This document shows positions 285 to 54,614 of a DNA stretch of 64,000 nucleotides, one piece after another. The first letter of the stretch is position 1. Every line of letters begins with the position of its first letter. Below the pieces are notes generated by a model. It saw only the letters and a list, made by a program, of their open reading frames with translations, made no database searches and was not told the origin of the DNA. The translations under genes were made by a program, and so were the position numbers. The stretch covers positions 197,456 to 261,455 of the forward strand of contig CAJNOJ010000072.1 in NCBI GenBank assembly GCA_905250025.1, given 5' to 3'. This DNA is from Adineta ricciae. Taxonomy: Eukaryota > Rotifera > Eurotatoria > Adinetida > Adinetidae.

Positions 285-2009
285 ATGTTAAAAATCGTTG
301 TGCTTTTATTATTCTTGTTCATATCGAAATGTGAGAATTATTCATTTCGGTACCTTCAAGAGAGAGAACCCGGTCCTTCGCCCTGGGGAAAGTATCGAAT
401 TTCGCCAAAAACCGGTGTGAAAATTGCATTACCAAGTAGGAGCATTTACTAAGTTTATGAAAAGACATAAAATCTTGTCTCTTTAGCACCTGAACAGCTT
501 CAGTGGCAAGCACAAGAACTAGGTGTACTTATTCATTTTAATATCGCCACGTATATTGATGGCGATGGATGCACTGGACAGATAGTTCCAAATATTTCCC
601 TATTTCAACCATATTTGTTGAATACGGATAATTGGGTTCAAACAATGGTTGATTTTGGTGCTCAATATGCTGTTCTAGTTGGAAAAGTGAGTATTCTCTC
701 TTTTATTTTTTCTCAAAGCTATTTTTTCTCATTGATAATTAAAGCATGCTTGTGGATTTCATATGGCACCTACGGATGTTAAATTTCCAGTGAATCCCTC
801 GGGTCGAATTATCCCTTATACATATTCGATTGATTATTCGCCAATGAAGGGTAGAGATGTTTTGGGAGAATTCATTGCTAGTTGTAAGAAAAAACAAATA
901 CGGACTGGATTTTATTATACAGTTGTTAATAATAACTGGTTTGACGTGGATAGAGGCTATGTAAGTTCGATGTGATGCAATCAAAACAAATCATTTTACT
1001 TGTCATATCTGAAACATTAGGTTCAAAACCGTTCGCTGCAACCAGGTCAAGTAAATATCACACAAAAAACATACGAAAATATTGTTTTACAGCAGTTGAG
1101 TGAAATTTGGACCAGGTATGGTAAATTAGAAGAAATTTGGTTTGATGGAGGGTGAGTTCTAACGATATGATAAAATCTATTCTTCGATTATTTTATATAG
1201 ATATACAGAAGATATGAAAGAACCCATAACTGCTTTATTGGCTGAACTTCAACCTCAGGCGATTGCTTTCAATGGCTATGGTGTTTCGACAAATCCAGCT
1301 CGGTGGATTGGCACGGAAATGGGCATTGCACCCGATCCAAACTGGTCAACGGGTGTAACTAACGATGGCGGCGATCCTGATAGTCCAATCTTTTGTCCTG
1401 CAGAATGTGATACAACACTTCAGAATCACGATCGATGGTTTTGGGTACGATTTCACTTCTGTACGATCGATAAAATATTATGTGTAATCGTTTCTTCTTT
1501 AGGGTATCAACGCAACACTTCGTCCATTGTCAGAACTTATTCAAGTTTATCATGAAACAGTTGGACGAAATTGCATCTTGATGTTAGATCTTACACCTGA
1601 TCGAACTGGTATCATCCCACCAGAATATGCACGTCGTTATAAAGAACTCGGTGATTTCATTCGTTCCTGCTATGGTACCTCAGTCACACCTACACAACAA
1701 CTCATCGTCCGAGACTCCTCGCTTCACATCCTACGATTCGATGCAACACCTGTCACCGTCGATCGCTCAGTCATTCAAGAAGATCAAACAAATGGACAAG
1801 TCATTCGAGCTTACACTGTCGACATACAACTAGTCAATGCAACACATTCTGATCAATGGATCACCGTGGCAAAAGGTACCAGTGTCGGAAACAAGAAGAT
1901 TGACATCTGGTCAATTGGAGCACAGTTAGTAAACGGTGTCCGACTGAACATCACCAAATCCGTGGACACACCAGTGATCAAAACATTTACAGTTCATTTG
2001 TGTAATTGA
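285..2009 (+). CDS. Alpha-L-fucosidase, GH29 (copy 1)
   Basis: Secreted or lysosomal glycosidase that removes L-fucose from glycans. Six exons are visible: 285-435, 487-686, 745-960, 1021-1151, 1201-1444 and 1503-2009. They sum to 1449 nt, a 482-residue protein, close to the family norm. The start MLKIVVLLLFLF is a hydrophobic signal peptide. The GH29 barrel follows: an HFN motif in exon 2, KHACGF across the exon 2/3 junction (the position of the usual K-H-x-x-G-F motif), and EIWFDGG at the end of exon 4, whose Asp matches the family nucleophile. The C-terminal part is a beta-rich domain ending VHLCN. All introns are 50-60 bp. A closely related copy lies 17 kb away in inverted orientation; exon 5 and the last ~500 bp are nearly identical while the other exons have diverged. 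Family call is firm; substrate linkage is not visible. Confidence 0.93.
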
Positions 2010-2143
2010 ACTTTCATATTTTATACATGATTGTGATTTTGATGTTCATCATTTGATTTTTTCGTACTGATGTCGAAAATAAAATAGATACAAAGAATGG
2101 CAATAGCTGTTTCTGTGGTCTCGCAAGTGATTATAGGTTCATG
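1640..2143. repeat. Inverted near-identical repeat, arm 1
   Basis: The 3' part of the last fucosidase exon, the stop codon and about 134 bp of 3' flank match 19122-19626 on the opposite strand almost base for base. Similarity ends sharply at 2143, where the flanks become unrelated. Outside this tract the two genes differ much more, which looks like gene conversion. Confidence 0.85.
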
Positions 2144-3039
2144 CTATCTCGAGCTGAAATACTATCATTCGATGCAGAATTTAAATCTGAGTCGAACGGT
2201 GTAGTTTCCATGCACGGGGCATGCTTAGTAAAACAGTTTTAAATTAATATATCGTTTGTTCGTGCCAGCTCCTTCGTGCTAAGCTTCACACTGATTTGGA
2301 TATGTTAGACTTTTCAGTGTCTTTCCTAGTTCGGAGAAAATAAGTGTGAAAATAATAACCAGTAACAATTATTCAGATGAATCAGACCAAAAAACTTTAT
2401 TATTGGTTTTAAAATAGTGTCAGTTTTAGAGATGATAGAATTTAATATACAACTGAAGATGGGATGGCAATTCTCCAATTCGTTGTTATTTTATTAAAGT
2501 GAAATTCTTCTGTTTCCTAACTGTAAGTTTTCCGAAATATAAGGGAAAACCTCTCGTTTATTTGTAAAGGAAGAAGAACTAGAAAACGAACGAGAACAGA
2601 ATAGTTAGAAGTAACACGAGAGCAAATCACATACTTGCATATATATATTGACGCATGTGAAGGAAAGGAAAATACCGTGAAAGTGCATGGAAATATCCTT
2701 ACATAAAACCCAAGATGACGTGTTGATTTCCCTGATCAGATCCTGGTCATTTTCGAGAACAAATCACCAACACTAACAATGATAGTGAGTATTTCCTACT
2801 CCTATCTACGTTGGTAAAAGCGTATATTTTTTATGAAAATGTGATTTGTCATCTACCTGAATCAACAATTACCAATATAGAAAAAACCCCAATGAATTCA
2901 TATTAGTCTTAATAATTATATTGCGTCGATTGGTGGGTATCCTATCACCATATCAATCAAATGATGTCACAAATGTATTGTAAAAAAACCCACTAGCTCA
3001 GGACAAAAATGCAATCGAACTCGCCTATAAAAAGGTCTA
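2144..3039. other. Intergenic, no gene seen
   Basis: AT-rich sequence between the fucosidase 3' flank and the TIR element. No ORF with coding character and no further repeat seen. Confidence 0.5.
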
Positions 3040-3492
3040 CACTGTAAAAAATAAACGTAGAATACAAAACCCTTCAAAAGGGTTTATTAGCTAATTAAAC
3101 CCTTTCACATACTCATTTTCGCCTTTTTATCTCCATAAACCCTCTCATCAACCCTTTAAGCTGATCAACCCTATCAAGGGTATTTGATACGTTGCACTTT
3201 CATACACTTTTAGGGTATATGAGTACTGATTAAACCCTCAGAGGTTTATCTACTTCATAAACCCTTTGTAAATCTGTTTAATAATCTACCCTTTAGAAAT
3301 AACTGACGAGTAAAAAACGCTTTTCTGTAGGAAAGTGCAACGTATCAAATACCCTTGATAGGGTTGATCAGCTTAAAGGGTTGATGAGAGGGTTTATGGA
3401 GATAAAAAGGCGAAAAAGAGTATGTGAAATGGTTTAAGTAGCTGATAAACCCTTTTGAAGGGTTTTGTATTCTACGTTTATTTTTTACAGTG
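3040..3492. mobile_element. MITE-like non-autonomous TIR transposon
   Basis: A 453-bp element bounded by terminal inverted repeats of 162 bp each (3040-3201 and 3331-3492) around a ~129-bp core. Comparing the arms by eye gives only four or five mismatches. The termini begin CACTGTAAAAAATAAACG and the element is flanked by TA on both sides (3038-3039 and 3493-3494), consistent with a TA target-site duplication. There is no ORF, so it would depend on a transposase elsewhere. The TA duplication suggests a Tc1/mariner-like source, but the termini alone do not prove the superfamily. The arms could form a very long hairpin. Confidence 0.85.
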
Positions 3493-4068
3493 TAGTAGCG
3501 ATGATATAACTCGCTCTCGTCCTGCGACTAAGGTGAGGCTTTTTCAACTAAATGAAAAAAGAGATAGATCAGAATAGCAAATGAATTACTTTTCGTGGTC
3601 AATGCAAGATAAGCTGGCATTCCACGGAAACTTTCTAAGAAAGGAGGCGGAATGGAAAGTCAGTAAGATAAGTTCGTATTATTCCCCAGGTTATTATGGC
3701 ACGGTCGGAGTCCGGCGGCAATGAATCTGCCGGAGCTTGCTGGAATCGGCGAAAACTGTGCCGGAATCGAGAAGAGCTGTACCGGAACCCACTCAGATTT
3801 CAACGGATCCGGTCGTCGGAATGATCGACCTGGGCATGCACAAATAGACGAGAACAAAAAGAGATCAGATATAATATCACCCATGACTTAGGCCAGAGTA
3901 CTGGGGGTATTCGAATGCTTTTCAATCAAATCAGATCCTAATGACATCCGCCCCGCACCCTCATCGGGAGAGATCCCCGCCAACACCCACACTTCATGTG
4001 GTTTACTGTATATAATTACCTTTAAAAGTAATTAATTTTATTTCAGATAGCATAGATTCATTTACGCA
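3493..4068. other. Intergenic, probable 5' UTR intron
   Basis: Between the TIR element and the next gene. A TTTCAG acceptor at about 4041-4046, shortly before the ATG, suggests that the downstream gene has an intron in its 5' UTR. No gene supported. Confidence 0.4.
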
Positions 4069-4759
4069 ATGTCATGCACAAAGCGTACGCTTCTAGAGGT
4101 AGTGAAGCTGATTGTGCTTCTTATTTCCGCAATAGCCTTTTTTTTTGGCATGATGGTGCTTCATGACTCTACTGAAGCACGCCATGCATACCAACACTAT
4201 GTGCGTACGAGCTGTTTGATAACAAACTATACACAGTTTGATTATGAAAATACAGCGTGTGGCAGCATGAGTGGTCCTGGTGCCACTTGTGTGACTAAAG
4301 ATAAAACTATTGAGGAATTTCACATCTCATATTTAATTGGGAATGGGACACTTGTAAATCGTGAAATTCGTTTCAGCTACACTGTGGAACCAGAATATCC
4401 TAGAGAAGTATACACTTTCATTTGTCTGTAACATATTGAAATGATTATAATTTTTGCTTTTTTTTCAGCTTGGCTCTCGCACTGAATGTTTTTACAATCC
4501 ACAAAATGTAATCGATCTGGTCTCGGGGAAGATAATTTCGCATGCCAAATGGAGTATACATGCCATCAAGATTCTTTTTCTCGTTGCTGCTGGAATGTTG
4601 GCTTTCGCCATCGCCTTATACACGATTCCCTGGATTTATAAAAAAAGGCAAGAAGCTAGAAATCACTCAAATCATGGTGCTCCAGTACGGATGAAGATAA
4701 TCAAATCAACTGAAACCAAAGAAGATATCGACGTGAAAACCTATGTCGCAGATGTGTAA
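4069..4759 (+). CDS. Two-TM protein with Cys-containing ectodomain
   Basis: Two exons joined by an intron of about 60 bp (from roughly 4409 to 4470); the junction reads PRE-LGSRTECFYNP in one frame. The product is about 210 residues. It has a short cytoplasmic N-terminus, TM1 (about residues 10-30), an extracellular loop of about 120 residues with several Cys and N-glycosylation sequons (NYT, NGT), TM2 near residue 160 and a charged C-tail. Topology, loop size and a CFYNP motif resemble BK potassium channel beta subunits (KCNMB, which carry a similar CFYxP motif), but overall similarity is weak and I do not assign it firmly. The alternative is a rotifer-specific two-TM family. Start taken at the first ATG in front of TM1. 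Confidence 0.7.
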
Positions 4760-5448
4760 CAATTTTTCTTTTCTTTTTTCTTATACATTCATATTCAAGA
4801 TTACAAAAAAAAACATTAAAATTTCTTTTCCACTTCTATGTTTCTTATTCTAAAAACATGATAGTGTCTTTCTACCCTTCTGTTTTTTATTCTATGTCAA
4901 ACTAACATGCATTCATGTATTCTTACATTGTAACAAAAACACTTTATCTTTTTCTTTCGCGTGATCTTCCCTTTTATTAATTATATGAGTGCTCCCGATA
5001 AACTGATGAATGACGTCGGGGCCAGTAACTTCTATCAAAATAACTATTGCCATATAACGATACTTCTTAGGCAAGACAATCTTAACGCAGTTCATGCTTC
5101 AAATCATTAACTTAGATCGATTACGAACTCAGCGAGAATCATGATACTGAAGTGTCATATTCATACAACTACTTTTCCTACCAAATCATTCCACCAGAAC
5201 TCTTCTTAAGTGCATATTCTAACATAAAACAAAAGCAAAGTGTCCACACTAGAAAGCCCACAAACCGCCAGCCAACTACTCCCACCGCATCGCTTAGAAT
5301 CACAAGAAAAATTCTACCGTTCATACCTACAGTGACAAATGTCCACTAACCCAAATACTGTCTCATTCGGGAAACTGCTTCAATCATAAGTGAACGAGAA
5401 ACCAGACATTTTTAAAACCCGACAAACTCTAGACTGATCTAACCATAC
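4760..5448. other. Intergenic, no gene seen
   Basis: AT-rich; short ORFs here lack start context, domains or splice support. Confidence 0.4.
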
Positions 5449-5524
5449 TGCATCGACTGACATCGAAAGAAGAGGCCTCTCGGTGGTGTTTATAGCGAAA
5501 AACGTCGACTCACTCAAATTCTGG
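5449..5524 (+). repeat. Direct repeat, unit A
   Basis: A ~76-bp unit starting TGCATCGACTGACATCGAA and ending near CACTCAAATTCTGG. It recurs at 5612-5687 with about 10 substitutions. Unit spacing is 163 bp. Confidence 0.75.
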
Positions 5525-5611
5525 CTGAATCGGCGAGCTGTTCTACAAAAAAGTCAACTCAAAGGAGGACACTCTTAAAAGAGGAGAAATTATGGACTCA
5601 TCTGCCAATAG

Positions 5612-5687
5612 TGCATCGACTGACATCGAAGGAAGGAGCCTATCAGTGGTGTTTATAGTAAAAAACATCGACTCACTCAAATCCTGA
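5612..5687 (+). repeat. Direct repeat, unit B
   Basis: Second copy of the 5449-5524 unit. An ATG at about 5592 opens a 30-codon frame through it, but nothing else marks it as coding. It may be a relic of a larger duplicated or mobile sequence. Confidence 0.75.
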
Positions 5688-7451
5688 CCTTTGTTGTGGA
5701 GCAGATGGTGAGTATGAGCTGGCAGGAAACGGGTTCAATATTAAGTGGAACTTATTTGAAGTGAAATGGAGAAGAATGCGAACAATGGGGATGGTGTATT
5801 CCATGTGTTCGTCAGAAATTGTTGGTATTTAATTTTGCTGACCACATTTACCGGATTGATGGGAATCCTAAGGTAACGCTACGACTGCGCGAGAGGAATG
5901 GTGTGATTTGAACAGACGATCATTCTAATAGTTGAGTTAAAAACAATCAAAGGATTGGTGTGTTGCAACATTTCGTTAGCGTGGGTAATCTGATGGCGGC
6001 GACGGTGATAATACGACCAGGCTGTTGTAGCAGTTCGGGACGCGTAGTTTCTGTGGAGTTAAGGATCGATATAGACAGGTACTTGTTTTAAGCGATAGTT
6101 TTCGTGTGGTTGATGCCTGAAGTCGGTAAATGAAATTGATTACTGATTCGGGGAGAGGGTTGATACTTTTGAATTTTAATCCTGAAATTGATTTTGCCAG
6201 AAAATCAAATTTCCGATGGCGCCTGAGGGGCAGATGATACATGTAGTGTGTAATCTAGGTTCGTTCGCTGCAGTACGAAGAATATATATAGAGAAATAGC
6301 TGGAATGGTAGGAATCAATGTTCTCACTATGTGAATACTGTCGAATGATGTATTTTGGGTCGTATACACCTGTTTAGAAACGTTAAATCGGATCCCATCC
6401 TTCCAGTAGAGGACTCGCGACGTTTACGTAGCGTTACTTGTAGTAGCTAGAAATGGACGACGTCATCTGAATTAATTTTGTCGAAAATTTCATTTCAATT
6501 TGGAATTGAGCCAGATTTTGGAAGGAAATAGTCGATTTATTCCTTTTATCGATCGTCACCGGAACATATATATTTATCAAGTCAATAATTGAGAAAAATT
6601 TTCTATCATTTAGACGTTTATCGATTATTAACATTGCTAGAACAACAAGACTCCGACTGTCTGGTATTGGACGCTCTTAATTTGATCAATGTGGAGTTAG
6701 CGCCACAAACCAGAGAATTATGTAAAAAAAGCGATTTACTTTAATAGGTTAGTCATAAATCTTTTCTGTAATAGTGCAATATGATTTTACTGAGTAGACG
6801 TTACTCTGGCAAGCCATATCACGATAGTTCGAGACACCACATAAACAAATTGATATGACTCCTAATCGAAGCATTTTCTTATCATTTTTGCCCAAATATC
6901 ATCGTGCGATATTTATTTATCACCGTCTGATCAAACCAAAAGAATATGCTGTTTGCAGTCAACCGTGACTAAAACATATAACTATAAAATATACCCTCGG
7001 TGAAAAATATCATTGTGTAATGACATTCTGAAACTAGTTCAGGTTAACAAATATTCAGAAATCGACACCGCCAGTCCTATCAGAAATTGTTCAAATTGGA
7101 TAAAGACAGCTGATAATTTGATTATATTTTTGTTTTGTTTCTTTTTTACGTTTGAACATTCGTCTATGTGCTATCGTTTACCCGACGCTCTTTTTTGCAT
7201 GGAGAGACACAAGAAACGTGCGATGATTGAGATTTGTTTCGTTTATTCCCTAGTGAGCGATAAAGGAATGGCGATTGTAACTTGCTCCCGTGACGTATAA
7301 AAAAGTCGTATTCAGCTATATATTTTTTTCCTAAAGTCACACAGGCTCGATTAATAACGATGTTATGAAGAGTATTTTTATAATCGCCTCGATAGAAGTT
7401 ATACCTTAATGATTAGTTTTCGATTTTTCTCATGTAGATCTTTTTATCAAC
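5688..7451. other. Gene-poor stretch, nothing recognised
   Basis: About 1.8 kb without a supportable gene. Part of it (about 5700-6250) is less AT-rich than the surroundings and could be a decayed element or lost gene, but I recognise no domain in any frame. A TATATA run near 7315 could serve the next gene. Confidence 0.4.
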
Positions 7452-7840
7452 ATGGAATTATCTGGTGTTCTAATGATATTCTTCTTAGGAATTAGCTTGA
7501 TTCCTAGTGTGGAAGCTAATATGGGAAGTCTGGTTTTGTCGACTCTTGGCGGTATTTGTGGTTTAGTAAGATACAGGTTCCCTATGAACTTTGTTTGAAA
7601 TTCTACAATGTGATTCTTTTTAGATTATTTTGGTTCTTGATGTTGTGGCAATCTTTGAATTGCTTACACAAAGCAATCATGATTGTTGCGGAAAACTCGT
7701 CTGGACATTGATCATATTCTTTTTTCCAATTGGAGGTATGCTGTAGAATAGTCTGATTTACATGTCTTTCCTTCTCTTTTCAAGGTTTGATTTTATACTG
7801 GTGTTTTGGCCGAAGTAACATTGACCATGAAAGCATTTAA
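7452..7840 (+). CDS. Small membrane protein with PLDc_N-type domain
   Basis: Three short exons too small to stand out as ORFs: 7452-7565, 7624-7735 and 7785-7840, with introns of 58 and 49 bp; lengths sum to 282 nt, a 93-residue protein. It starts with a signal peptide or TM (MELSGVLMIFFLGISLIPS). Two further hydrophobic segments follow. The second reads KLVWTLIIFFFPIGG and is followed by LILYWCFGR, the hallmark of the PLDc_N family (phospholipase D-nuclease N-terminal, PF13396: W-x-L-I-I-x-F-P-I-x-G-x-x-x-Y). Proteins with only this domain are known widely as small membrane proteins of unknown function. Frame closure across both introns supports the model. Confidence 0.8.
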
Positions 7841-8395
7841 ATTAGAACAAAATAGAAATCGGTTGTGAGCGAGCTGCTTCAGCATTTTTGAATTTTGATA
7901 ATAAATGAATCTTTAGCCTTGAAGTAAGATGTGTCCTACTGAACTCTAGGACTAAATTCGACCTTTCATTACAATTAGAACAACTTGCTTGTTTTTCTCA
8001 TCATCGATTACCATCTAAAAATCAATACGACACACATTTTAACAAATGGCAAGGACTGAGAATAGTACAATTAGATCATGACAAAAAAAATCTGTCTTAA
8101 ATTTCTTTCAGATATAATTGTAATTAATTTCATTTTTTTTTATTTGTTTATTTACAATCAATTCAAAAACAAAAAAAAAACACTTTTGCTAGAATTTCAG
8201 TGTAATATGTATGATACGGTGAAGGTTAGAAACAATGATTTAGTGGAAAAATCATCGAATCACTACAGTCGATAGAAAAACAAATTTTGACTAATTCTCG
8301 AACATCATACATAGCTGTTAACCTTTGAAATCAACTTCGATTTTATTTGAATCATTGAACATTTTTATCCCTGATATAAACTTTCTCTTTTGGAA
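7841..8395. other. Intergenic between convergent genes
   Basis: Presumed 3' UTRs of the PLDc_N gene and the minus-strand orphan. AATAAA at about 7901-7906 is a plausible polyadenylation signal for the former. Confidence 0.5.
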
Positions 8396-9085
8396 CTAAC
8401 TCGAATAGCCATTAGTAGCGCTTGGAGAAGGCATACAAAAATAATTGTGCATTACTCGTCGAAAGAATCCTTTGTTTGTTCTGCGTCGTTGGCAAATCTC
8501 ATTAGTTTGCTTTGTTTTGTCTTTTGATAACAATATATCATTCGAATGTTCTTTAGTTTGACAAGAAGATAATTGACGATGATGATTAGATTTACGATCA
8601 TTCGCATCTTTCACTTGTTTTATGTGAACATTTTTTATATCGACTGGCGGACGATGATGACGACGTGAGTTAGCATGACTGTTAACATGTTTTCTTCTTG
8701 GTCTTATGGGCGAGGGTGGGCGGTCGAGAAGATTGAAAAGATCGCAATAGTCATCCTTACGATTCGATTGCTGATAAATTCGACGAGGAGATGGTAAAGG
8801 AGGCGGCGTAGGTGGTGACGGAAAAGATTGTGTTATCGACTGAGATATTTGATGTGGTAAAGTAGCGTAATAATTCGAAGCATGCGTGATTATTGGATCT
8901 TCCAATCGTCGACGACGTCCTGGTATTTCTGACGGCGACGATGTTCGATCATGATGATAGGCTGGTGCAATGAATGTTGGATACTGTGAGGTGACAAAGT
9001 AATTCGAATGAAAGAAAAACAATGAACATGAGCACGTAGGAATATCACTGCCAGTGCATGGCCGGCAGTGCATGTAAGTTGTCAT
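8396..9085 (-). CDS. Basic, Pro/Ser-rich orphan protein
   Basis: Uninterrupted 229-codon frame. The N-terminus is Cys-rich (MTTYMHCRPCTGSDIPTCSC). A proline-rich stretch follows in the middle (SFPSPPTPPPLPSPRRIY), then a long His/Arg/Lys/Ser-rich, probably disordered half. No domain recognised. Just upstream on the minus strand TTTTTAG followed by GATTGACAAC looks like a splice acceptor of a 5' UTR intron, which supports a real transcript. The start codon sits inside a strong GC-rich hairpin (9061-9095). Coding status is inferred from length, composition and the splice site. Confidence 0.55.
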   Translation of the reverse strand: MTTYMHCRPCTGSDIPTCSCSLFFFHSNYFVTSQYPTFIAPAYHHDRTSSPSEIPGRRRRLEDPIITHASNYYATLPHQISQSITQSFPSPPTPPPLPSPRRIYQQSNRKDDYCDLFNLLDRPPSPIRPRRKHVNSHANSRRHHRPPVDIKNVHIKQVKDANDRKSNHHRQLSSCQTKEHSNDILLSKDKTKQTNEICQRRRTNKGFFRRVMHNYFCMPSPSATNGYSS

Positions 9086-9095
9086 GCACGCCGGC
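9061..9095 (-). promoter_or_regulatory. GC-rich hairpin covering the start codon
   Basis: GCCGGCAGTGCATG (9061-9074) pairs with CATGCACGCCGGC (9083-9095), with one bulged base and an 8-nt loop. On the minus-strand mRNA the AUG of the orphan gene lies in the stem. This is striking in such AT-rich DNA. A role in limiting translation initiation is inference. Confidence 0.55.
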
Positions 9096-10922
9096 TAGTT
9101 GTCAATCCTAAAAATATACAGATTTGGATTATATGAGATCTTCGAGAATTAAAGTGTAGTGAAATACTTCGTGTACTAATTTAAGCATGATCTAGGAATA
9201 TGTCATAAAACAGATTGTTTCTATAGGCTAACCTATATATTATTATTAACGTCATATTCTTTTTTACTTCTTTCGTTTCTCTTCAATCCTTGTTGATATA
9301 TAACCAAGGCTATTTGAATCTACCACTAATTAAACTTCGACGTTTTCTTTCGGGTTCGATATCTCTATGTCTATGCTTATTGAACTTGTACAAAGACCGC
9401 TTACTGGTGCATTCGAAGGGAACAAACCACAACCTTGCTTGACGTCGACACCGTCGTCGTTGATGTGTCTAATCTTTGCACTCGTTTTCTTTTTCTCTCT
9501 CTCTCTTTCTCTCTTGCCGTCTCCTTCTATAGCTTTTTTCTCTCATACGTCTCTATACGTTTGTGACGTAGATCGAACACTACTGGGCAAGTCATATTCA
9601 TGCATGTACATACAGGTAGATGTATGTGCACATTTGTCAATTGATCAATTATCAATCGAGCAAAACGAAAAAAAAACGAAAGACGGGAAGAAATAGAGAG
9701 AAAAAGGGAGGGAGGGAAGGAGGGAAAACGCTTTAATACAGCCTCAGGTTGCTCGACAGCAAACCCTTTAACTGATCAAATATGCATCTTCGGCTAATTG
9801 CTGTCTGATTCGATGATAATAATCCTGAATGACTAAAAGTCGATTTGCTTTCTTTGTCAAGAAAAGTTTATGGGTATAAAAGATAGGACTGTGAGAAATC
9901 TTTTAATATTATTTCATCTCTGTACATTTTTCTTTAAAATTAATAGTAATAACAGATTCGATCTTGTTTATTGAAATATAATTATGCATAATTAAGAAAA
10001 AACTTGAGATAATTTAAAAATGAAGGCCATTAAGTTAGATCAAATTGCTATTACTGGTGATTAGATGAGTATTCATTAGGCTAATTAGCGAATATTTGAG
10101 AATGAATCAATTTTGTATTCCTGTTTGTACCGGTGTAAAAGATTCTCTGTCAACAGATTCCTTTCAAACGGTTTGCGCAACGTCTTATATTTTTCAAGTG
10201 TTTGATTTCGTCAATGATACTTACTCAACACGAGAAAGAAAAATGACGAGTAACGTTCTTCGATCACCTTGAAAAACAAACGCAACTTCCATTGAAGTGT
10301 TTTTTCAACGATTAACACATATGTGATTTCCAAGTACCTCTTGAATATTGAACACGATGATCAAGAGAATTTCATTTTAAAAATGAAATGATAGTTTACA
10401 TCGACTCAAGAATTTATCTAACGAAAATATTTTCCATGCACAGAAAGTCATTGATGATTATTTCGAGATTTTTTTCTTTGTTTTGTTCATCATCCTCGAT
10501 AATAAATTCATTTTGACAAACACATTAGTGAATAGATGAAAAAAGAATGAGACAGCAGAAGTAGACGACGAATGTTTGTTGTAGTAGTAGACATTAAACA
10601 CATCGAAAACGAGAACGCGCGTATTACGAACACACATATTTGAGAGTAAGAAACAAAAACGAAGACGAATATGTGTGTTGACTGGTAAAATCGAGAGACA
10701 GAGAGAGAAAAAACATAGCGCAGATCAATTCTACTACCTGTCTAGTTGTACATTATGTACAAGATAATAAACGAAAAAAAAATGAGAACGAAGGAAGAAG
10801 AGAAAGAAAGAAAGAAAAAAGATTTTGTTTTTGCAAAAACAGTGCACAGCCACTAGTGACAAACAACATTGAGAAAAGGAGAGGTTAACTCACAGACAGG
10901 TACAGATAAAGAAAAAAAAACT
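9096..10922. other. Intergenic with homopurine/homopyrimidine tracts
   Basis: About 1.8 kb without a supportable gene between the orphan's 5' end and the 3' end of TLE. It holds a CT-rich tract near 9490-9530 and long purine-rich runs at about 9664-9729 and 10767-10830. The right part is probably TLE 3' UTR. Confidence 0.5.
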
Positions 10923-13895
<2,973 letters not shown>

Positions 13896-14436
13896 TGTGT
13901 ATGTTTGTTTTTGTATTACACGTCGTCTACAAGAAAAGAAAACAATTGACAATGAAAGAACACCACTTTCTATGTCATTTCGTAACATACTTTCCATCAT
14001 AATTTTATTGTTCGATTTAAAATGTATAATTGTTAGTTGAAAAAGAACAGAAGTTAAAAAACCGAATAGGCTTCGAACGAATTTTTAAATCTGATTATCT
14101 AGAATGAACATCAATAGGGAAACAAAAGAATCAATCAATATATATATAATGTGTCCGTTTCAATCATTAAACAGAGCAATCGTATAGCAGCTGACAAAAG
14201 CCATACTTCGAGATTGATCGATGTCTGACAGAGGAGGTTAATTCTAGACAGTTCAAAATGCATAGATGACTTGAAATCAAATGATTCGATTGGTTTATAC
14301 GATTGTCCAATGAGAAAATTCGAATTGAACAAAACTACTCGTCGCGATTTTTTTTTCTTTCCTTCCTGTTTATTTTCTTTCGTTCGTTCGTGTATTTCAA
14401 TATATCTTAGCACGTATTTGATATCTACATATACCG
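13896..14436. promoter_or_regulatory. Bidirectional intergenic region, TLE / CSK-like
   Basis: About 540 bp between two divergent starts. It includes a spliced TLE 5' UTR, with an acceptor near 13928-13929. No consensus motif identified. Confidence 0.5.
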
Positions 14437-16119
<1,683 letters not shown>

Positions 16120-17084
16120 TTGTGTACATATATTCTGCGTTTTGTTTGCCTTTCTTATTTGACAATCCACTCAATGAAATTGATTTTTATTCGCAATATC
16201 GTCCCACTCGTTTAATTTTGTGCAAAATTTGACTGACGAACAACAAAATTAAATACTTCCGTCTCAACTTCAGAATGACAATAATCATATCGTTTTCTTT
16301 TCTTATCTTTGTACATCTAAGCCATTCGCAAAAAAAAACGTAACAAAAAATATAAATTCATGTCTATGTGCGTCTGAATGTATGTGTGTCTTTTCTTCTT
16401 TCTCTCTTTACTTTTTGATATATATATACATATACATGAATGTGTATACATGTGCACCTTCGTAGTTTGATACATTTCTCATTTGTTTGTTTCTTGTTGT
16501 TTTTTTTTGAATGTGAAAATCAATGAATCAAAACGAGGTAAAAACATCGACATGGAATCTTTTTCCTTGTGTCTTTTGTTACCACTAAACACACTTTAGT
16601 AACGTAATAATAAACTATGCAACTGATATCAGATTGAATGATTAGTATTCATCAAACATTGTAACCTTTTATATGATTGAATGAACGATGAATGCCATCG
16701 AAAAATGCTATGAAAACTTTGTTGACTATACATATTGATTTTTATCGGAATCGTTCGGGTTAATTAACGAAAGACTACTGTCGATAATGCTTGTAATTAT
16801 AGTATGTGGAATGTTTATTGATAATTTTGACATTTGTATATAAATGTTCTGCTTGTTTGGCAATGTTACGAAAGATCAATGAGAATGTTCAAAGGAATTC
16901 AGACCGTCAGGGATCCGTTCGATTAGATTTCGTTTTTTTTTCTACGTTTTATGTTCGAGAGAATGAGAATGAAGCATACGGAATCGATTTGTGTTTATTG
17001 GCTAGTAAGATTGATAAGAAAACGTATTTTAGATTAGAATCAAAGGAGGCCTTCCTCGATTATTACATTCACTGAGGCAACAAC
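16120..17084. other. Intergenic / kinase 3' UTR
   Basis: AT-rich with a TA/CA-type simple stretch at 16418-16450. No supportable gene; an open frame at 16806-17075 lacks protein-like character. Confidence 0.5.
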
Positions 17085-18425
17085 ATGAATCGATCGAATA
17101 TCTATAATGTAATTCATATAAGTTTTTCATTCGTTTTGATATTTATGTCGTTTGGTGTAACACAATTATTTCAAACGTCATCTGACCACGCAAAAGATGG
17201 AGCATTTGCAGTCGGAATTATCTACATTGTGTTTTGTTCGACAAACTTAGCCCTTTCCTCGCATCTGACTCATCTATTAGGTATACGTTTGACATTGATT
17301 GTGTCTAGCCTGACATACGTATTTTTCATCGCTGCTAATATTAAATACTATCCATGGATGCTGTACACTTCATCATTCTTACTCGGTCTTGGTGCTGCAT
17401 TATTTTGGACTGCACAAGGTGTGTATGTAACACTAGCAACGAATGAACATGAGCAAGTAAATGGTTTAGCTCCATCGTCAACACGAGGTTTTATTAATGG
17501 AGTCTTTTTGGGCCTGTTTTATCTACATCAAACACTGGGCAACCTACTGATGTCCTTTCTGTTTTATTCGAAGTTATCGCAATGGATTATTTTCGCCATC
17601 ATGACAGCTATTGCTGGATTAGGAACCTTTAGTTTAATTTGCCTTCGGCCAATGAGAATGCCTAAAAACACAGGTTTTACCTTTATTTATATCGATTTTA
17701 TAACAGAAATGCTATTTTTGCACTTAGATCAACGGTCGGTTTTATCACGGCTAACTATACTTTGGGACTTGCCATTTGTGTTACTTGTACCATCGATTTC
17801 TTACCTTGGTTTATCCCAAGGATTTATCTATGCTGCAATTCCACCATTGATTATTGATAATAGTAGAAAATTTCTTATCTTTGCTTTCTATGGAATAGTC
17901 ACTGCTGTTTGCTCGATCGTGTTCGGCAGATTGAGTGATTCGCGTATACGTCGCTTGGACGTTTTCATTCTAGGTGCATTTTCTCATACGGTTATTTATG
18001 CACTTTTATTAACTAAGTGGAAGCCACCATTGGATCAAACACGCATCGAGATATTTATCATCATAGTCGCTGGTCTAGCAGTCGGAGATAGCTTATTTAC
18101 GTCCCAACTATTTTCGACACTTGCCGTCTTTTATGGATTCACTCGACCTGCAGATGCATTTGCATCGTTGAGAATATTTCAATCAGCTGGTACGGCATTG
18201 ATATATGTGACTCAAGCATATATTTCAATTCAAATTCAATTGTTCGGTTTAATCACTCTTGCGTCACTAGCAGTTGTTACACTTATCTATGAACATTATG
18301 GAGTCAAATCTTTAGACACGGGAAAAACAAATATGGAAGTACAAGGACCAAGTATTACGTTATCAAATATGAAAATAGACGATGGTTTACCATTGAATAT
18401 TTCAACGAATACTACTGTGTTGTAG
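17085..18425 (+). CDS. UNC-93-like major facilitator protein
   Basis: A single-exon gene for a 446-residue polytopic membrane protein with about 11-12 hydrophobic segments. It has the features of the UNC-93 branch of the major facilitator superfamily: an N-terminal half with SSHLTHLLGIRLTLIVSS, then LGLGAALFWTAQGVY, the most conserved UNC93 signature (G-x-x-A-x-x-W-x-x-Q-G), and a later VFGRLSDSRIRR loop. Family members include potassium-channel-associated UNC-93 in worms, MFSD11 and the TLR chaperone UNC93B1. The substrate is unknown. Lack of introns is unusual for this window and could reflect retroposition. Start is the first ATG ahead of TM1. Confidence 0.85.
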   Translation: MNRSNIYNVIHISFSFVLIFMSFGVTQLFQTSSDHAKDGAFAVGIIYIVFCSTNLALSSHLTHLLGIRLTLIVSSLTYVFFIAANIKYYPWMLYTSSFLLGLGAALFWTAQGVYVTLATNEHEQVNGLAPSSTRGFINGVFLGLFYLHQTLGNLLMSFLFYSKLSQWIIFAIMTAIAGLGTFSLICLRPMRMPKNTGFTFIYIDFITEMLFLHLDQRSVLSRLTILWDLPFVLLVPSISYLGLSQGFIYAAIPPLIIDNSRKFLIFAFYGIVTAVCSIVFGRLSDSRIRRLDVFILGAFSHTVIYALLLTKWKPPLDQTRIEIFIIIVAGLAVGDSLFTSQLFSTLAVFYGFTRPADAFASLRIFQSAGTALIYVTQAYISIQIQLFGLITLASLAVVTLIYEHYGVKSLDTGKTNMEVQGPSITLSNMKIDDGLPLNISTNTTVL

Positions 18426-19121
18426 CATCACGAGAATGGTACTTACATGTATTGTGATTATATCAAAAGAAGAAAGCGAAGATGAAAGAAGACAAAAAGT
18501 TTACTTTGACTGCTTAATTCAATATAATCGACATCAAAAGTAGTCTAAGTAATATATCGAGTTAATGAAAGATTAGTACCGGCAACTATCTGACAGTTTT
18601 CTCTTACGAACAGGGAAAAATACGTTTCTTTTTTTAAATTTCTTTACTCAATTGTCGACATGCTCGAACAATACCACCCCAAAACGGGCATTATTCAATT
18701 AACTCTACCTGTGGACAAATGATCGCTAGCCATTTGATTCAGATATCGAAAGAGGTACAACATGCAATAGGATATTCAACGCACTGAGTCTTGTTATTTC
18801 AGCAAAATGTTCTAAGAAATTCATTCTTTCGTTGTCAGTCAGTTCGATTGAGAAACATTATTCATAGCTATGACATATTGGTCACCATACGTGAAGCGAT
18901 TCATATGACAGGGAATCGTATCAATGAAATCCATATATATCTAAGAAACGAGAGAAAGAAAAATGACAGCAATGCACAATCACCCTGGACAGGTTGAACT
19001 AATCAACGGTCAAATACATAAATGAATAGGTAGATGGAAATTACTCTGCACTAAGGCTTAGTTTTCTGCCGTCATCACGATGTATGATTTCATATAAGTA
19101 TACGAACACTTCTAACGGCAT
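18426..19121. other. Intergenic between convergent genes
   Basis: About 700 bp with no supportable gene; it ends where the inverted fucosidase repeat begins. Confidence 0.5.
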
Positions 19122-19626
19122 CATGAACCTATAATCACTTGCGAGACCACAGAAACAGCTATTGCCATTCTTTGTATCTATTTTATTTTCGACATCAGTA
19201 CGAAAAAAATCAAATGATGAACATCAAAATCATAATCATGTATAAAATATGAAAGTTCAATTACACAAATGAACTGTAAATGCTTTGATCACTGGTGTGT
19301 CCACGGATTTGGTTATGTTCAGTCGGACACCGTTTACTAACTGTGCTCCAATTGACCAGATATCAATTTTCTTGTTTCCGACACTGGTACCTTTTACCAC
19401 GGTGATCCATTGATCAGAATGTGTTGCATTAACTAGTTGTATGTCGACAGTGTAAGCTCGAATGACTTGTCCATTTGTTTGATCTTCTTGAATGACTGAG
19501 CGATCGACGGTGACAGGTGTTGCATCGAATCGTAGGATGTGAAGCGAGGAGTCTTGGACGATGAGCTGTTGTGTAGGTGTGACTGAGGTACCATAGCAGG
19601 AACGAATGAAATCACCGAGTTCTTTA
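19122..19626. repeat. Inverted near-identical repeat, arm 2
   Basis: Reverse complement of 1640-2143, covering the 3' end of fucosidase copy 2, its stop codon and about 135 bp of 3' flank. Similarity stops abruptly at 19122. Confidence 0.85.
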
Positions 19627-20958
19627 TAACGACGTGCATGGTTTATTGGAATCAGACCGGTGCGATCAGGAGCAAGGTCTAACATAAGGATACAGTTTCG
19701 GCCAACAGTTGAATGATAAGCGTCTATCATTTCGGCAAGCGAGCGTAATGTCATATTCGTCTACAAAAGAAAAGAGATTATTTTTGAAGAACATCTCTCT
19801 CACTCTACAATACCCAGAACCATCGATCGTGATCTTGAAGTGTCGTATCACATTCTGCAGGACAAAAGATTGGACTATCAGGATCACCGCCATCGTTAGT
19901 TACACCCGTTGACCAGTTTGGATCAGGTGCAATGCCCATTTCCGTGCCAATCCACCGAGCAGGATTTGTCGAAACACCATAGCCATTGAAAGCAATCGCC
20001 TGAGGTTGAAGTTCAGCCAATAAGGCAGTAATTGGCTCTTTCAAACTCTCTGTATATCTGGTAACCATGCATAGAAAGAAGAAAGTGAATATGAAGAAGC
20101 CTGAAAAGAACTCACCCTCCATCAAACCAAATTTCCTCTAATCTCTCATATCTAGTCCAGATTTCTCTTAACTGTTGCAAAACAATAGAATCATACGTTT
20201 GCTGAGTTACGTTGAGTTGTCCGGGTTCCAGTGACCGATTTTGAACCTTTGTTGCAACGCATGATGTTAATAGGAAAATCAAAAGTCTCGTAACATACCA
20301 TACCACTCTGCACGTTAAGATAGTTATTTGATACTACCGAATAATAGAATCCGGTTCGGATTTGTCGCTTTTCACAACTGTCGACAAATTCTTTCAATAC
20401 ATCTCTGCCCTTCATTGGTGAATAGTCAATTGTATAATTATACGGTACGATTTCACCAGATGGGTTTAAGGGAAACTTTACATCAGTAGGTGCCATAAGA
20501 AAACCAGATCCATGCTATAAATATAGATTAATAGATACAAAAGCTGTTCTTCCGTATATCCTACTTTAGCCACCAGTACAGCATACTGGGCACCAAAATC
20601 GATCATTGTTTGTACCCAGTTATCCGTATTCAATAAATATGGATCAAACAATGAAGAACTTGGAATATTTCGCAATTCAAACCCATCAGCAAAGAATGTT
20701 TCCAAGTTAAAATGAATAAGAACACCTAACTCTTGTGCTTGCCACTGAAGTTGTTCCGGTGCTAAGAAAAGAAAGGACGATAGCAATACAAACACTTCTG
20801 CACATAGGATTACTTGGTAATGCAATGCGAACACCAGTTTTTGGTGATATACGGTATTTTCCGAATGCAGACGAAAGTAATCGTCGATGGTGCCGAATTG
20901 AAAGACTCTGACATACCAAGGCGAATAAAAATAGCAACAGAGTAGCACAAGTCTTCAT
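19257..20958 (-). CDS. Alpha-L-fucosidase, GH29 (copy 2, inverted)
   Basis: Second intact GH29 fucosidase with the same six-exon structure as copy 1, about 490 residues. The signal peptide (MKTCATLLLFLFALVCQSLS) differs from copy 1. The motifs are conserved: HFN, KHGSGF in place of KHACGF, and EIWFDGG with the nucleophile Asp. Exons 2-4 are clearly diverged from copy 1 at protein level. Exon 5 (TNPARWIGTEMGIAPDPNWS region) and the region after residue ~375 are almost identical, while the start of exon 6 is diverged again (TLRSLAEMIDAYHS against TLRPLSELIQVYHE). No frameshift or stop was seen, so both genes look functional. The gene points toward copy 1. Confidence 0.92.
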
Positions 20959-44583: not shown

Positions 44584-47168
44584 ATGGGAAATGATCTCTC
44601 TTCGACGACAGCACGAACATTGATACCGTTAGATGATGCTGCTTGTTGGCAGCTGTACAATGGTACTAATGAACGGTCAGAAGCAATATCAATCTTCGTG
44701 GCAAAACAAACATTTTCAGTTGAATGTCGACGATCAATTCAGGTAAAATTGAATTGTGTTTCTATCATTGAGACTTTTTATCTGTTTAGTTTCTTAAAAC
44801 AATACGCCATCCGAATATTATCAAGTTTTTCAATGGTTTTAAAACATTTGTTGACCAAGATAGCTTTATTGCGGATTGCGTACATCCGTTAGCAAATAAA
44901 TTAACTAATCAGGATATTGATTCAACAGCTAAACTATGCTTGGGTCTTTATCATTTATCTCAAGCATTAGAATTCCTTCATGAAAAAGTAAACGACGAAA
45001 TTTACAATAATTTCTAATCGTTGTCATGTTTTTATATTCAATCAGGCTCGTATCAGTCATAATAATGTGTGCCTCTCATCACTTTATATTTCTTTGAATG
45101 GCATTTGGAAATTAGGAAATTTTGAATGTGCCTGTCGATATGATAATTTGAACAAGAAATATTTGTCATCATTGAAACTTATCCGATGGGAAGAGTGTAT
45201 AACACCTGAAGAAGATGAAAAGGTCGGCATTTTATATTGCGCGTTCAAATTCAAACCTTAAAATAATTTTAGAGTTCAACGGAAATAACTAAGAAAGATA
45301 TATATGCCATAGATATATATGGATTCGGAACATTGATTCGACATCTGATGACAATTGTTAATGTCGATGGTAGGATTCTCTTTAGTATGAAAGCCAAGAT
45401 TCATTATGATCATGTCTAGATGCATTGAAAAATCTTCTTGATAATCTGCAAATATCTCTTACGGATGAAGATTCGCAATCACGTCCAAAATGGTCAGCGC
45501 TTCTTCAGACGCAACTATTCCAGTGAGTTATTGTTTTCGAAACATCGGCAAATTGAACGAAAATTTTCCTAATAGGATTGATTATATCAAAACAACGGAA
45601 GTTCTTGATCGATTACCAACTGTCGAAACGTCAGATCTTGATGCTGTCGTCGAGTATAATTGATAAATTCACGAAAATATTCAACAGTCCTTTCTCTAAT
45701 CATTTCTTACAGGTCTCTATCAACTTATCTTGATAATCTTAATTCTGCTTATTTCAATGAATTATTAATTCGTCGCTTATTTGTTCCATTTATGTTTTTA
45801 TGTTCTTCAACCAGATCGAAAATCATTCCGAGGATTCTGATTCCTAAAGAAGATAATGCGAACTCGGAGTCATGGATACCTGTAGACAAATATCGAACTT
45901 ATGTTATTCCACTAATCGTCGATCTATTTTCTTATCATGTTACATGTATACGAGAAACATTACTTGAATATTATAATTCCTATTGGCAATTGATCGATAG
46001 AACTACTTTGATAAACATTATACTTCCACAAGTAAAATTCGAATCGAATGGAGATTGATATCTGGAAAAATTCGTCTTTCTTTGTTGTAGCTTGTGTATG
46101 GATTGAAAGATTCTAGTAATTCTATATGTACATTAACATTATTGGCACTAGCAGCAATGGTACCCGTCTTAGGTGGTGACATAGTTGTTGGTGGACAACG
46201 AAAACAGATATTTACAGATAAAATCAAAAAGGAGGTTTGTTGTCCTTTTTGAGTGACACTCAAGATGGTTTGCGCCAAAATTTTAGAACGTTTCTTCGCC
46301 TAAACTGGCGAAAGCAGCAGCAGCTGCGACCGCTGCCGCAGCATCTGTTAAAAATTCGCCAGTAGCTACTCCAACATCTTTACATAAAATTAGAAAATCT
46401 AGTCCGAGTTCAACCACGAAAATCAAGTAAGTTCATCAAACAGCAATAACTCTGTCCATCATCAAAAAAATGCTTCATTTTTATAGTGCTTCACAAGTGG
46501 AATCTCTTTCTACTCATACTCCACAACAAACAAAACCATCATCCGCTCCTGTCAAAACACTATCAGCTATTACACCGTCAGAACACACCAATGGATATCA
46601 TGTACCAACAAATATCTCCAATGTAGAACCGCCTGTCGCCATAGTTCAAAACGGAGTTTTTAACTCTAATCATGAATCGGAAATCGAGCGTAACGATGAC
46701 GATGACGATGGTCAATGGTCTGATTGGGAGCATAATCCTGATCCACCGGAATTGCCTGATGTATTTCTGCCCGAAGAACCAAAACAATCTGTCACAACTA
46801 TTTTGCCATCATCATCGAAATCTCTGAAATTAAATAATATTTCAAAACCAAAATGGAATCCCAATGCACCGTTAGGTAGTGAATATGAAATTCCACCAGT
46901 TGTTCGATCGACAAATAAATCAAGGAACGACGAAGCATTAGACAATCAAGAATCTGAAGATTTTTTCAAAGATATGATACCAAAATTTCAAACAGTACAG
47001 TTAATGACGCAATTAGAAACAATGTTCAACCTTAATCCTGAAAAATATAAAGAAGAGAAGAAATCTACAGATGCAACATTGTCATTTTCCAATAAATTTG
47101 GGATAATGCAACATGATCACGAAGACAATCAAGAAATCGAAAGTGGAAATAATAATTGGGATGAATAA
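44584..47168 (+). CDS. SCYL3: SCY1-like pseudokinase 3 (PACE-1)
   Basis: Membrane-associated pseudokinase scaffold; mammalian SCYL3 binds ezrin and sits at Golgi and leading edge. The start was set at MGNDLSSTTARTL because the MGN motif matches the family's N-myristoylation site; an upstream in-frame Met would mask it. The N-terminal kinase-like domain lacks catalytic motifs: SHNNVCLSSLYISLNGIWKL replaces the HRD loop, and GNFE stands where DFG should be. FLKTIRHPNIIKFFNGF and DIYGFGTLIRHLMTIVNV confirm the fold. HEAT-like repeats follow (YVIPLIVDLFSYHVTCIRET, IILPQ-LVYGLKDSSNSIC, then GGDIVVGGQRKQIF). After an Ala-rich and Ser/Pro-rich linker, the C-terminal motif QWSDWEHNPDPPEL and LGSEYEIPP resemble SCYL3 tails. 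It ends GNNNWDE. Confidence 0.9.
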
Positions 47169-47890
47169 AATCATTTTCGTTTTATTTTCTCTTTTACGTC
47201 TCGTATATATAAGCAGTGATATATTATTTACCGTAATTTCTAACCTGGTGGTTACAGATTCAATGTTTTCTTTTCGTTTTCATGTATATTCGAAAACATT
47301 GTCTAGATCAACTTTCATTATTAATAAAAATAACCTTTTACGAATGAATTCTGAGAATTTTTCAAGAACGTGAAATATATATTTAAGTAAGTAACTAATT
47401 AAGGTCAGATGAAAAGCCAAAAAATAAAGATGTCTATTCAGCATGAATGTGTGATGACCTCATCGCGTCTTTTTGCTTTTTCGTGTATATTCAAACGCGT
47501 GGCCTAGACCTATTGGTACCTTATGAACTCTGTACACGAGAAATCGAGCTATCTATGAACTTCTAGACGAAAACATCGAGATCGAATATCTAAACACGAA
47601 GTCATGACGTTAATCATGTCTTTTGTTCGTCTGATAATATTGTTCGACAAAGACTTGCGCTGCTTAGTACACATGCACAAAAAGAAAGGCAAAGAAAATG
47701 AATAGTCATTAAACTGTTTACGATGTGCTCTTGTTCATGAAAGCCATGCCTGTTTAATTAAATGGCAAGTGTTTTCTGCAAAGATACTATCAGATGAAGA
47801 ATGTTGAAATGAATGCTTTGCTTGATGATGATAAAGTGAAACAGAGGGATGATCTATTTAGTAAATGAAATATTCAAAAAGCATGGCAAA
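47169..47890. other. Intergenic, no gene seen
   Basis: 3' UTR of SCYL3 (AATAAA at 47165-47170 overlaps the stop) and featureless sequence. Confidence 0.45.
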
Positions 47891-53152: not shown

Positions 53153-54614
53153 ATGCCTCGAAGAAATTGTCTTCGTCGGCTACGTTTATATCTTATTCTT
53201 TTAGTAATTTTTGTTGTATTTACGTGGTTCATACCTTCGATATCATTGAAGTTCGACGGGAGAAACGAAGATGTTATTGGATACGACAAGAATTATTTGG
53301 ACAACCGTATTTATCCGCCACCATGGTGTATGTTTAATTGGACCGTAGGTGACTACTTTGTTCGGAAAGACGCGTTGAAGAAACTGGAAGATCAAGATGC
53401 AATAGATAAAAAACAGAAAATAGTGTTAGACAATGGATTTTCAAATTGGAAGAAACATAATCAATCGGACTATCTTATTCTTGAGTATACGACAGTGTTT
53501 AATCAACCAAAATTTTGTGGAAAAACACCGACTTTCATTTTTGGGAAACATTGCCCATATCAAAATTGCAGGTAAAAACAGTCGCATTGTACGTTAATCA
53601 CAGTTATTGATCATATCAGACAAATATTGATAGTTGATCCGATCTGAGACTAAATTTATTAATTCTACAGCTCAGAGTTTGATCTCCACATTGATAGGCT
53701 CAGACAGACGTTTAGTTCCGACAATATTAAAGTTTGCTGATGTACTTATATCTTTATATAGGTACACATGTGATCGAAATTGGTCAAAAAGTGCAGATGT
53801 TCTGCTAATGCATCATCATGATATTCACTTTGATCAATTGTCAATCGAACGTAATCCGGATCAAATCTGGTTATTTTGGCATGATGAGCCTGGTGGCGTT
53901 ATAAAACATGCGATAGACTATCAGTTCAATTGGACTATATCATATCGTTTCAATGCAGAAGCTAGTATTGGTGCGTATGGCATAACTATTTTTCGTGATA
54001 AACCACTAACAACTAAACACTTCAATTCATATATTGATGAAGAATTTAAGAAACGACAAGCATACGCCATATGGTTTGTTAGTAATTGTCAGCCGAGAGC
54101 TCGCATTGACTTTTACCTAAGATTTCGTTCGTACTATCCGTTCACTCGCGTGTATGGCAAATGTGCTTCACAAAATACAACAAGTCAATGTTCCCGAGAT
54201 TCTCAATGTGAAAGTGATGAATTAACAAGAAACAAGTTTTATTTAGCATTTGAATCTCAGTCTTGTCGAGATTATATAACAGAAAAATTTTGGCGTTCGC
54301 TTGCGTTTGGTATTATTCCGATTGTATTTGGACCACGTGATAAGCAATCGTTAGAAAGAATAGCACCGCCCAAGTCTTTTGTTTTTGCCGATGATTTTCT
54401 TACAATATTGGATCTGGCAGAACATTTAACTGAAATTGATCGAAATCGAACTTTATTCGAAGAATATCATCGATGGCGTCGATTATACAAGATTCTTTAC
54501 CTGCCAGAAGATATTGAACATTATCGTTTTTGTGAACTTTGTTATCGTCTGAATACAAATCATCAAAGAGTTTACTATCGAAATTTGAATGAATTTTTTC
54601 TTGAAGACTGTTGA
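53153..54614 (+). CDS. Alpha-1,3-fucosyltransferase-like (GT10)
   Basis: Golgi type II membrane glycosyltransferase that moves L-fucose from GDP-fucose to N-acetylglucosamine-containing glycans. Two exons, 53153-53571 and 53762-54614; 1272 nt, 423 residues. A short basic N-tail (MPRRNCLRRLRLY) precedes one TM anchor (LILLVIFVVFTWFIPSI). The catalytic domain shows the acceptor-side block DQIWLFWHDEPG, NWTISYRFNAEASIGAYG, and the GT10 donor-binding signature YLAFESQSCRDYITEKFWR followed by SLAFGIIPIVFG. Several N-glycosylation sites (NWT, NQS, NTT). The intron is unusually long for this window (190 bp). The upstream in-frame stretch from 53126 begins with TTG, so the first ATG at 53153 is used. 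Acceptor linkage cannot be deduced. Confidence 0.9.

Follow-up and report, generated by a model that had tools for sequence, protein, structure and literature searches.

We report a pair of genes of the glycoside hydrolase family GH29 (alpha-L-fucosidases) from the rotifer Adineta ricciae, which face each other in a window of 64,000 nucleotides (C72:197456-261455, from contig CAJNOJ010000072.1) and which are near-identical in two short tracts and strongly diverged elsewhere, a mosaic that is very probably best explained by ectopic (interlocus) gene conversion. The two genes, A on the forward strand and B on the reverse, form a convergent, inverted pair; both are intact, with open frames, GT-AG introns and six exons each. 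Matches to the Pfam family Alpha_L_fucos were obtained for both (A, E 5.4e-27 and 95.6 bits; B, E 1.1e-26 and 94.6 bits; cut-off 25.2) and, together with the matching six-exon models, they bear out an earlier, sequence-only reading of this DNA in which two intact, facing GH29 genes had been described. The genome searched comprised 130.5 Mb in 1033 contigs; the guanine-cytosine (GC) content of the window is 35.6%, and Table 1 of PMC7943196, the part of that paper drawn on here, gives the published assembly of the species as 135.6 Mb in 4302 sequences with 35.5% GC. The features on which the argument turns are as follows (window coordinates).

285..2009, forward strand: gene A, a six-exon GH29 alpha-L-fucosidase gene encoding 482 amino acids
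285-435, 487-686, 745-960, 1021-1151, 1201-1444, 1503-2009, forward strand: exons of gene A (GT-AG model)
19257..20958, reverse strand: gene B, the inverted paralog of A, six exons, 478 amino acids
20958-20814, 20761-20565, 20514-20299, 20246-20116, 20057-19814, 19760-19257, reverse strand: exons of gene B (GT-AG model)
1233..1422, forward strand: tract T1 in A, inside exon 5, 185 of 190 bases identical to B
19836..20025, reverse strand: tract T1 in B, from the alignment to A
1445..1626, forward strand: diverged island in A that separates T1 from T2, made up of intron 5 and 124 bp at the start of exon 6
19640..19813, reverse strand: diverged island in B, separating T1 from T2
1627..2143, forward strand: tract T2 in A, from the remainder of exon 6 through the stop codon into 134 bp of 3' flank, with nine substitutions and one 1-base indel relative to B
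19122..19639, reverse strand: tract T2 in B, from the alignment to A

Alignment of the two loci in full, with identity taken per segment and at synonymous sites, shows a strongly uneven divergence. Identity is 0.974 in T1 and 98.3% in T2 (508 of 517 aligned bases), the latter being made up of a coding part (375/383, 0.979) and a 3' flank in which 133 of 134 bases agree, apart from one 1-base indel; immediately past position 2143 of A it drops to 0.40. Outside the tracts, exons 1 to 4 are 0.63, 0.75, 0.71 and 0.77 identical, introns 1 to 5 lie between 0.40 and 0.53, and 79 of the first 124 positions of exon 6 agree (0.64). The earlier claim that exons 1-4, the intron before exon 6 and the start of exon 6 are diverged therefore holds (63-77% in exons, 40-53% in introns), and its near-identical stretches require adjustment at their edges. 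Exon 5 is near-identical from about 1233 to 1422 and not from 1201, its first 32 bp being 0.78 identical and the likeness fading over its last 22 bp (0.86), while the second stretch, correctly ended at 2143 with exactly 134 bp of flank, begins at 1627 and not at about 1640.

Over the 1574 columns of exon and flank, the block that scores best runs from 1627 to 2143 exactly and was matched in none of 5000 site shuffles; T1, once T2 had been removed, was likewise matched in 0/5000, and when blocks of 30 columns were shuffled the observed block was reached in none of 500 trials. Synonymous divergence (dS) between A and B is 1.62 for exons 1-4 together with the start of exon 5 and 1.38 for the island with the end of exon 5, against 0.097 in T1 and 0.056 in T2. 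The few differences within the tracts fall at 9 of 136.5 synonymous sites and at 3 of 427.5 nonsynonymous sites (Fisher p = 0.00026) and, being mostly synonymous, as expected under purifying selection, they must have evolved after the copying and do not represent sequencing or other random error.

A second GH29 pair, a tandem pair of subfamily GH29-A, is present in the assembly in two haplotypes, C134 and C101, which are 93.3% identical across 9 kb. Its paralogs are 68% identical upstream and 98.3% and 97.5% identical within a 401-column 3' tract, where the alleles, at 94.3%, are less alike than the paralogs within either haplotype. Informative four-sequence sites in this tract group 15 times by haplotype and never by gene copy; upstream (columns 0-1239 and 1421-1583) the counts are 3 and 335 (p = 9e-24) and downstream 1 and 241. 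The best block falls at matching places in the two haplotypes, with 412 columns in C134 and 406 in C101. Two further patches, picked by eye and given with uncorrected p-values, are specific to one haplotype each: at columns 1327-1384, which cover the end of an exon and intron sequence, conversion of C134 copy 1 only is indicated by 12 sites against 1 by orthology (p = 9e-12), and at columns 1306-1312 five sites indicate conversion of C101 copy 1 only against none (p = 4e-6), so that copy 1 is the recipient of both. Since tract and patches group by haplotype, conversion at this locus continued after the haplotypes had parted and left haplotype-specific patches. The tract contains a 50-nt intron, whose removal is needed for an open frame in each of the four copies, and as this intron was converted along with the exons the template was DNA. 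The sequence-only reading had spoken of repeated conversion; the haplotype-specific tracts support the word here but not for A and B, where a difference in age between T1 and T2 is not significant (Fisher p = 0.47 at synonymous sites, 0.06 with the flank added).

A uniform block test, in which exon and intron columns were mixed, was applied to eight local paralog sets, a small sample. For GH29 these were all the same-contig sets from the family search (C72, C134/C101, C147 and C326), C300 and C717 holding one copy each; for the GT10 fucosyltransferases, a single cluster within about 10 kb taken by eye (C318); and for the carboxylesterases, three (C369, C309, C276) of ten local sets picked by eye, the C369 triplet being represented by its two adjacent genes. 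A mosaic was found in all four sets, from three families, whose backbone is at least 20% diverged, namely the inverted GH29 pair, the tandem GH29 pair of C134/C101, the tandem fucosyltransferases of C318 and the tandem carboxylesterases of C369. Their blocks span 174-517 columns, with 0-2.2% divergence inside and 22-30% outside, and were reached by 0/500 site shuffles and at most 2/500 block shuffles. The four sets that are at most 10% diverged are non-diagnostic: out of 500 site and 500 block shuffles, the block was reached in 286 and 254 for C326, 449 and 489 for C309, 69 and 21 for C276 and 0 and 0 for C147, whose block of 961 columns at 2.2%, against 6.8% outside, may be merely slower-evolving sequence. 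The C326 copies, X and Y, considered as a further case of conversion, are evenly 95% identical, are best read as two haplotypes in tandem and are thus uninformative. C318:36001-40500 and 45001-47500 hold three tandem GT10 fucosyltransferase genes in a multi-way mosaic of near-identical and diverged blocks, and C369:5501-9400 holds a tandem carboxylesterase pair that is near-identical toward both ends and about 70-75% identical over much of the sequence between.

That A and B are misplaced alleles is ruled out by their dS of 1.4-1.6 outside the tracts. This divergence is of the same order as the mean KS (synonymous divergence) of 1.27 for ohnologs, and that of the tracts lies below the mean of 0.135 for homologs, both means being taken from an extract of PMC5916493, which also gives a median homolog divergence of 4.6%; allele-like pairs of the present assembly differ by about 5%. 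Among the best 40 of 215 candidates in the genome, T2 occurs at high identity in A and B only, and the only other close relatives of the two genes found in the genome are X and Y. These are ruled out as donors, since in the coding part of T1 and T2 they match A and B at 63-71%. The two differ from each other by 4-5% across the whole gene, while C300 and C717 are 94.8% identical, and we read both as allele pairs, X and Y having been put in tandem by the assembler. Over the tract regions A and B differ at 14/707 positions (2.0%) and X and Y, whose allelism is itself deduced, at 36/715 (5.0%; Fisher p = 0.002), and as the former is the smaller figure it is possible that the A/B conversion postdates the split of the haplotypes. 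Outgroup states place derived changes on both A and B and so give no polarity. In a comparison of 74 kb of C72 with 40 kb of C326, no synteny was found except for GH29 itself and a weak receptor-like match. Along C326:15001-55000, segments of about 3-4 kb recur in tandem at 94-95% identity, with exact 321-bp duplicates at two places, and this region is probably two haplotypes concatenated by the assembler.

The explanation that we favour is that A and B are old local duplicates (dS of about 1.4-1.6), in which non-reciprocal copying from one locus to the other, with DNA as the template, would have replaced exon 5 and the 3' end. It accounts for the near-identity of synonymous sites and flank, the sharp edges, the inverted arrangement and the haplotype polarity at the second GH29 pair, all of which uphold the ectopic conversion proposed from the sequence at the outset. 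The likely route would begin with a break in one copy, from which a strand invades the other copy, is extended by synthesis and is then released, that is, synthesis-dependent strand annealing without crossover; we infer break repair as the cause of these tracts, as we would a direction of copying between A and B, and T1 and T2 may stem from a single patchy event, from two separate ones, or from long-lived islands that repeated conversion keeps alike. Unequal crossing-over does not homogenise inverted copies and is therefore no alternative for A and B, though the C134/C101, C318 and C369 sets are tandem and would not alone rule it out; an intrachromatid crossover would flip the spacer but would not make the arms any more alike. 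In the two C134/C101 haplotypes the tract edges nearly coincide, which favours islands kept by repeated conversion, and such islands would remove the need to recombine at 70% identity. We put forward tentatively, at somewhat short of even chances, the wider view that islands with nearly equal edges in both haplotypes are maintained by repeated copying and that ectopic conversion is pervasive in this animal among local duplicates past a dS of 1, the rest of the gene drifting to ohnolog-level divergence, with breaks at palindromic elements perhaps as one entry point.

An element of this kind lies directly beside gene A.

2157..2296, forward strand: single arm of an inverted-repeat element resembling a miniature inverted-repeat transposable element (MITE), the listed copies of which are mostly two-armed

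The element has at least 79 matches in the genome, the window's own included; full copies are palindromic and about 385 bp long, their two arms having been judged by eye among the best 40 of 219 candidates scored. BLAST places the broken inner end of the single arm 14 bp away from where T2 ends on its 3' side; by eye the distance is perhaps 6 bp. Of five other single-arm matches that were examined, four keep 206-281 bp, past the centre, and one, on C334, shares the break point and has an ambiguous base (N) at the join. These facts bear on a variant of the conversion explanation, compatible with it, that we consider doubtful: the conversion would have been one-ended, a break in the palindrome beside A leading to invasion of exon 6 of B, copying past the stop codon of B and end joining to the broken element, with A as the recipient. 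The broken arm so near the tract edge is what this would leave, and the stretch past the T2 edge of B (window 16900-19121) matches only itself in the genome. However, the C334 half element implies that the break may mark an assembly join, which weakens the half element as proof of direction, and a deletion preceding the conversion would give the same picture. Among the open-licence papers listed, none has a title that describes a MITE or break-repair pattern of this type. Another palindromic element, with 170-bp arms that are 97% complementary, occupies window 3037-3495 and has relatives, among the matches listed, only on C844, C944, C839, C441 and C797.

Certain points weigh against gene conversion as the source of the mosaic. 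According to the extract of PMC3924818 used here, conversion takes place mainly above 80% identity, and outside the tracts A and B reach about 70%; this would not count if the tracts themselves never became so different. A search of two stretches revealed no second haplotype of the C72 locus, which leaves the A/B transfer unpolarised. Lastly, the assembly has doubtful joins, at C326, where X and Y stand in tandem at 95% with the exact 321-bp duplicates and where the broken end of X carries an N, and at the N of the C334 half element. Such joins lend some colour to an assembly artefact, in which a short-read assembler set B, or the other haplotype of B, into A wherever words were shared; the T2 edge in A does adjoin a repeat element, and mosaics in all four informative sets could stem from a single fault in the pipeline. 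We nevertheless regard an artefact as improbable: the window is without an N anywhere, four switches would each need to preserve frame, splice sites and register, purifying selection is visible in the tract differences, and all six pairwise comparisons in the C134/C101 tract are at least 93.8% identical, so that phase swaps cannot yield the pattern.

Conversion templated by complementary DNA (cDNA), in which recombination between one copy and a spliced transcript from the other would have spared intron 5, would suit an island that contains this intron and tracts that lie in exons and at the 3' end. It is nonetheless very improbable, because T2 extends to 2143, 60 bases beyond the AATAAA at 2078-2083 and further than the usual cleavage site, the island also includes 124 bp of exon 6, and the intron of C134/C101 was converted together with the exons. 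Least credible of all is selection that would have held the protein sequence or the codon choice alike in the tract regions only, for although T1 is without an amino-acid difference in 62 whole codons, the synonymous sites and the 134 bp of flank are alike too, as the earlier argument from conversion beyond the stop codon had it, and A and B differ from copy Y by a dS of 1.3-2.4 inside the same tracts, where sites are thus free to change.

The solved structure nearest to gene A by sequence is 3gza_A, a putative alpha-L-fucosidase which we take to be a bacterial protein, and gene A is presumably GH29-B-like. The motifs IWFDGG and GTEMG, which we take to be the sites of the catalytic nucleophile and acid/base, are present in A and B, those of A aligning with chain 3gza_A, and the hydrophobic N-terminus of A resembles, by eye, a signal peptide. 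In a pattern search of genome contigs for bacterial relatives, none of 131 matches was confirmed. The 17 kb spacer between A and B holds ordinary animal genes, including a Groucho/TLE-type gene and an UNC-93-like transporter, and a GT10 fucosyltransferase gene lies at window 53634-54614, about 33 kb away from the fucosidase pair. Among the open-licence papers listed, none has a title concerned with rotifer fucosidase genes.

Interlocus gene conversion tracts average about 200-500 bp, according to the extract of PMC3924818, and the tracts described here (about 190 and 517 bp) share with those between other duplicated genes their short and presumably non-reciprocal nature, their sharp edges and their extension to synonymous and non-coding sites. 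They differ in that the backbone is only about 70% identical, with dS above 1, a divergence at which conversion is considered rare, and in that several local sets are affected. In bdelloids, conversion between homologous copies has been described, and repair of desiccation breaks put forward as a cause, in the excerpted parts of PMC5916493, PMC7749112 and PMC3464624; the present case shows the same homogenisation by copying in the same animal group, but between paralogs at different places and not between homologous haplotypes. With the inverted-repeat arms of the human Y palindrome P6, as presented in part of PMC3723533, the pair has in common its inverted orientation and intrachromosomal copying, whereas A and B, an old pair that has diverged, are alike in two short blocks only. 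Among the open-licence papers listed, none has a title that deals with conversion in bdelloids between neighbouring but diverged paralogs. The process itself is known; what is notable is how often it seems to act between paralogs of such divergence.

The debate over bdelloid genomes largely rests on the homogenisation of haplotypes. Should diverged paralogs often be copied onto one another too, the gene trees of these animals, their duplication dates and their allele calls would be patchworks, and break repair would tolerate templates more diverged than is usual. At C134/C101, where both haplotypes are present, the direction and relative timing of such copying are directly measurable.

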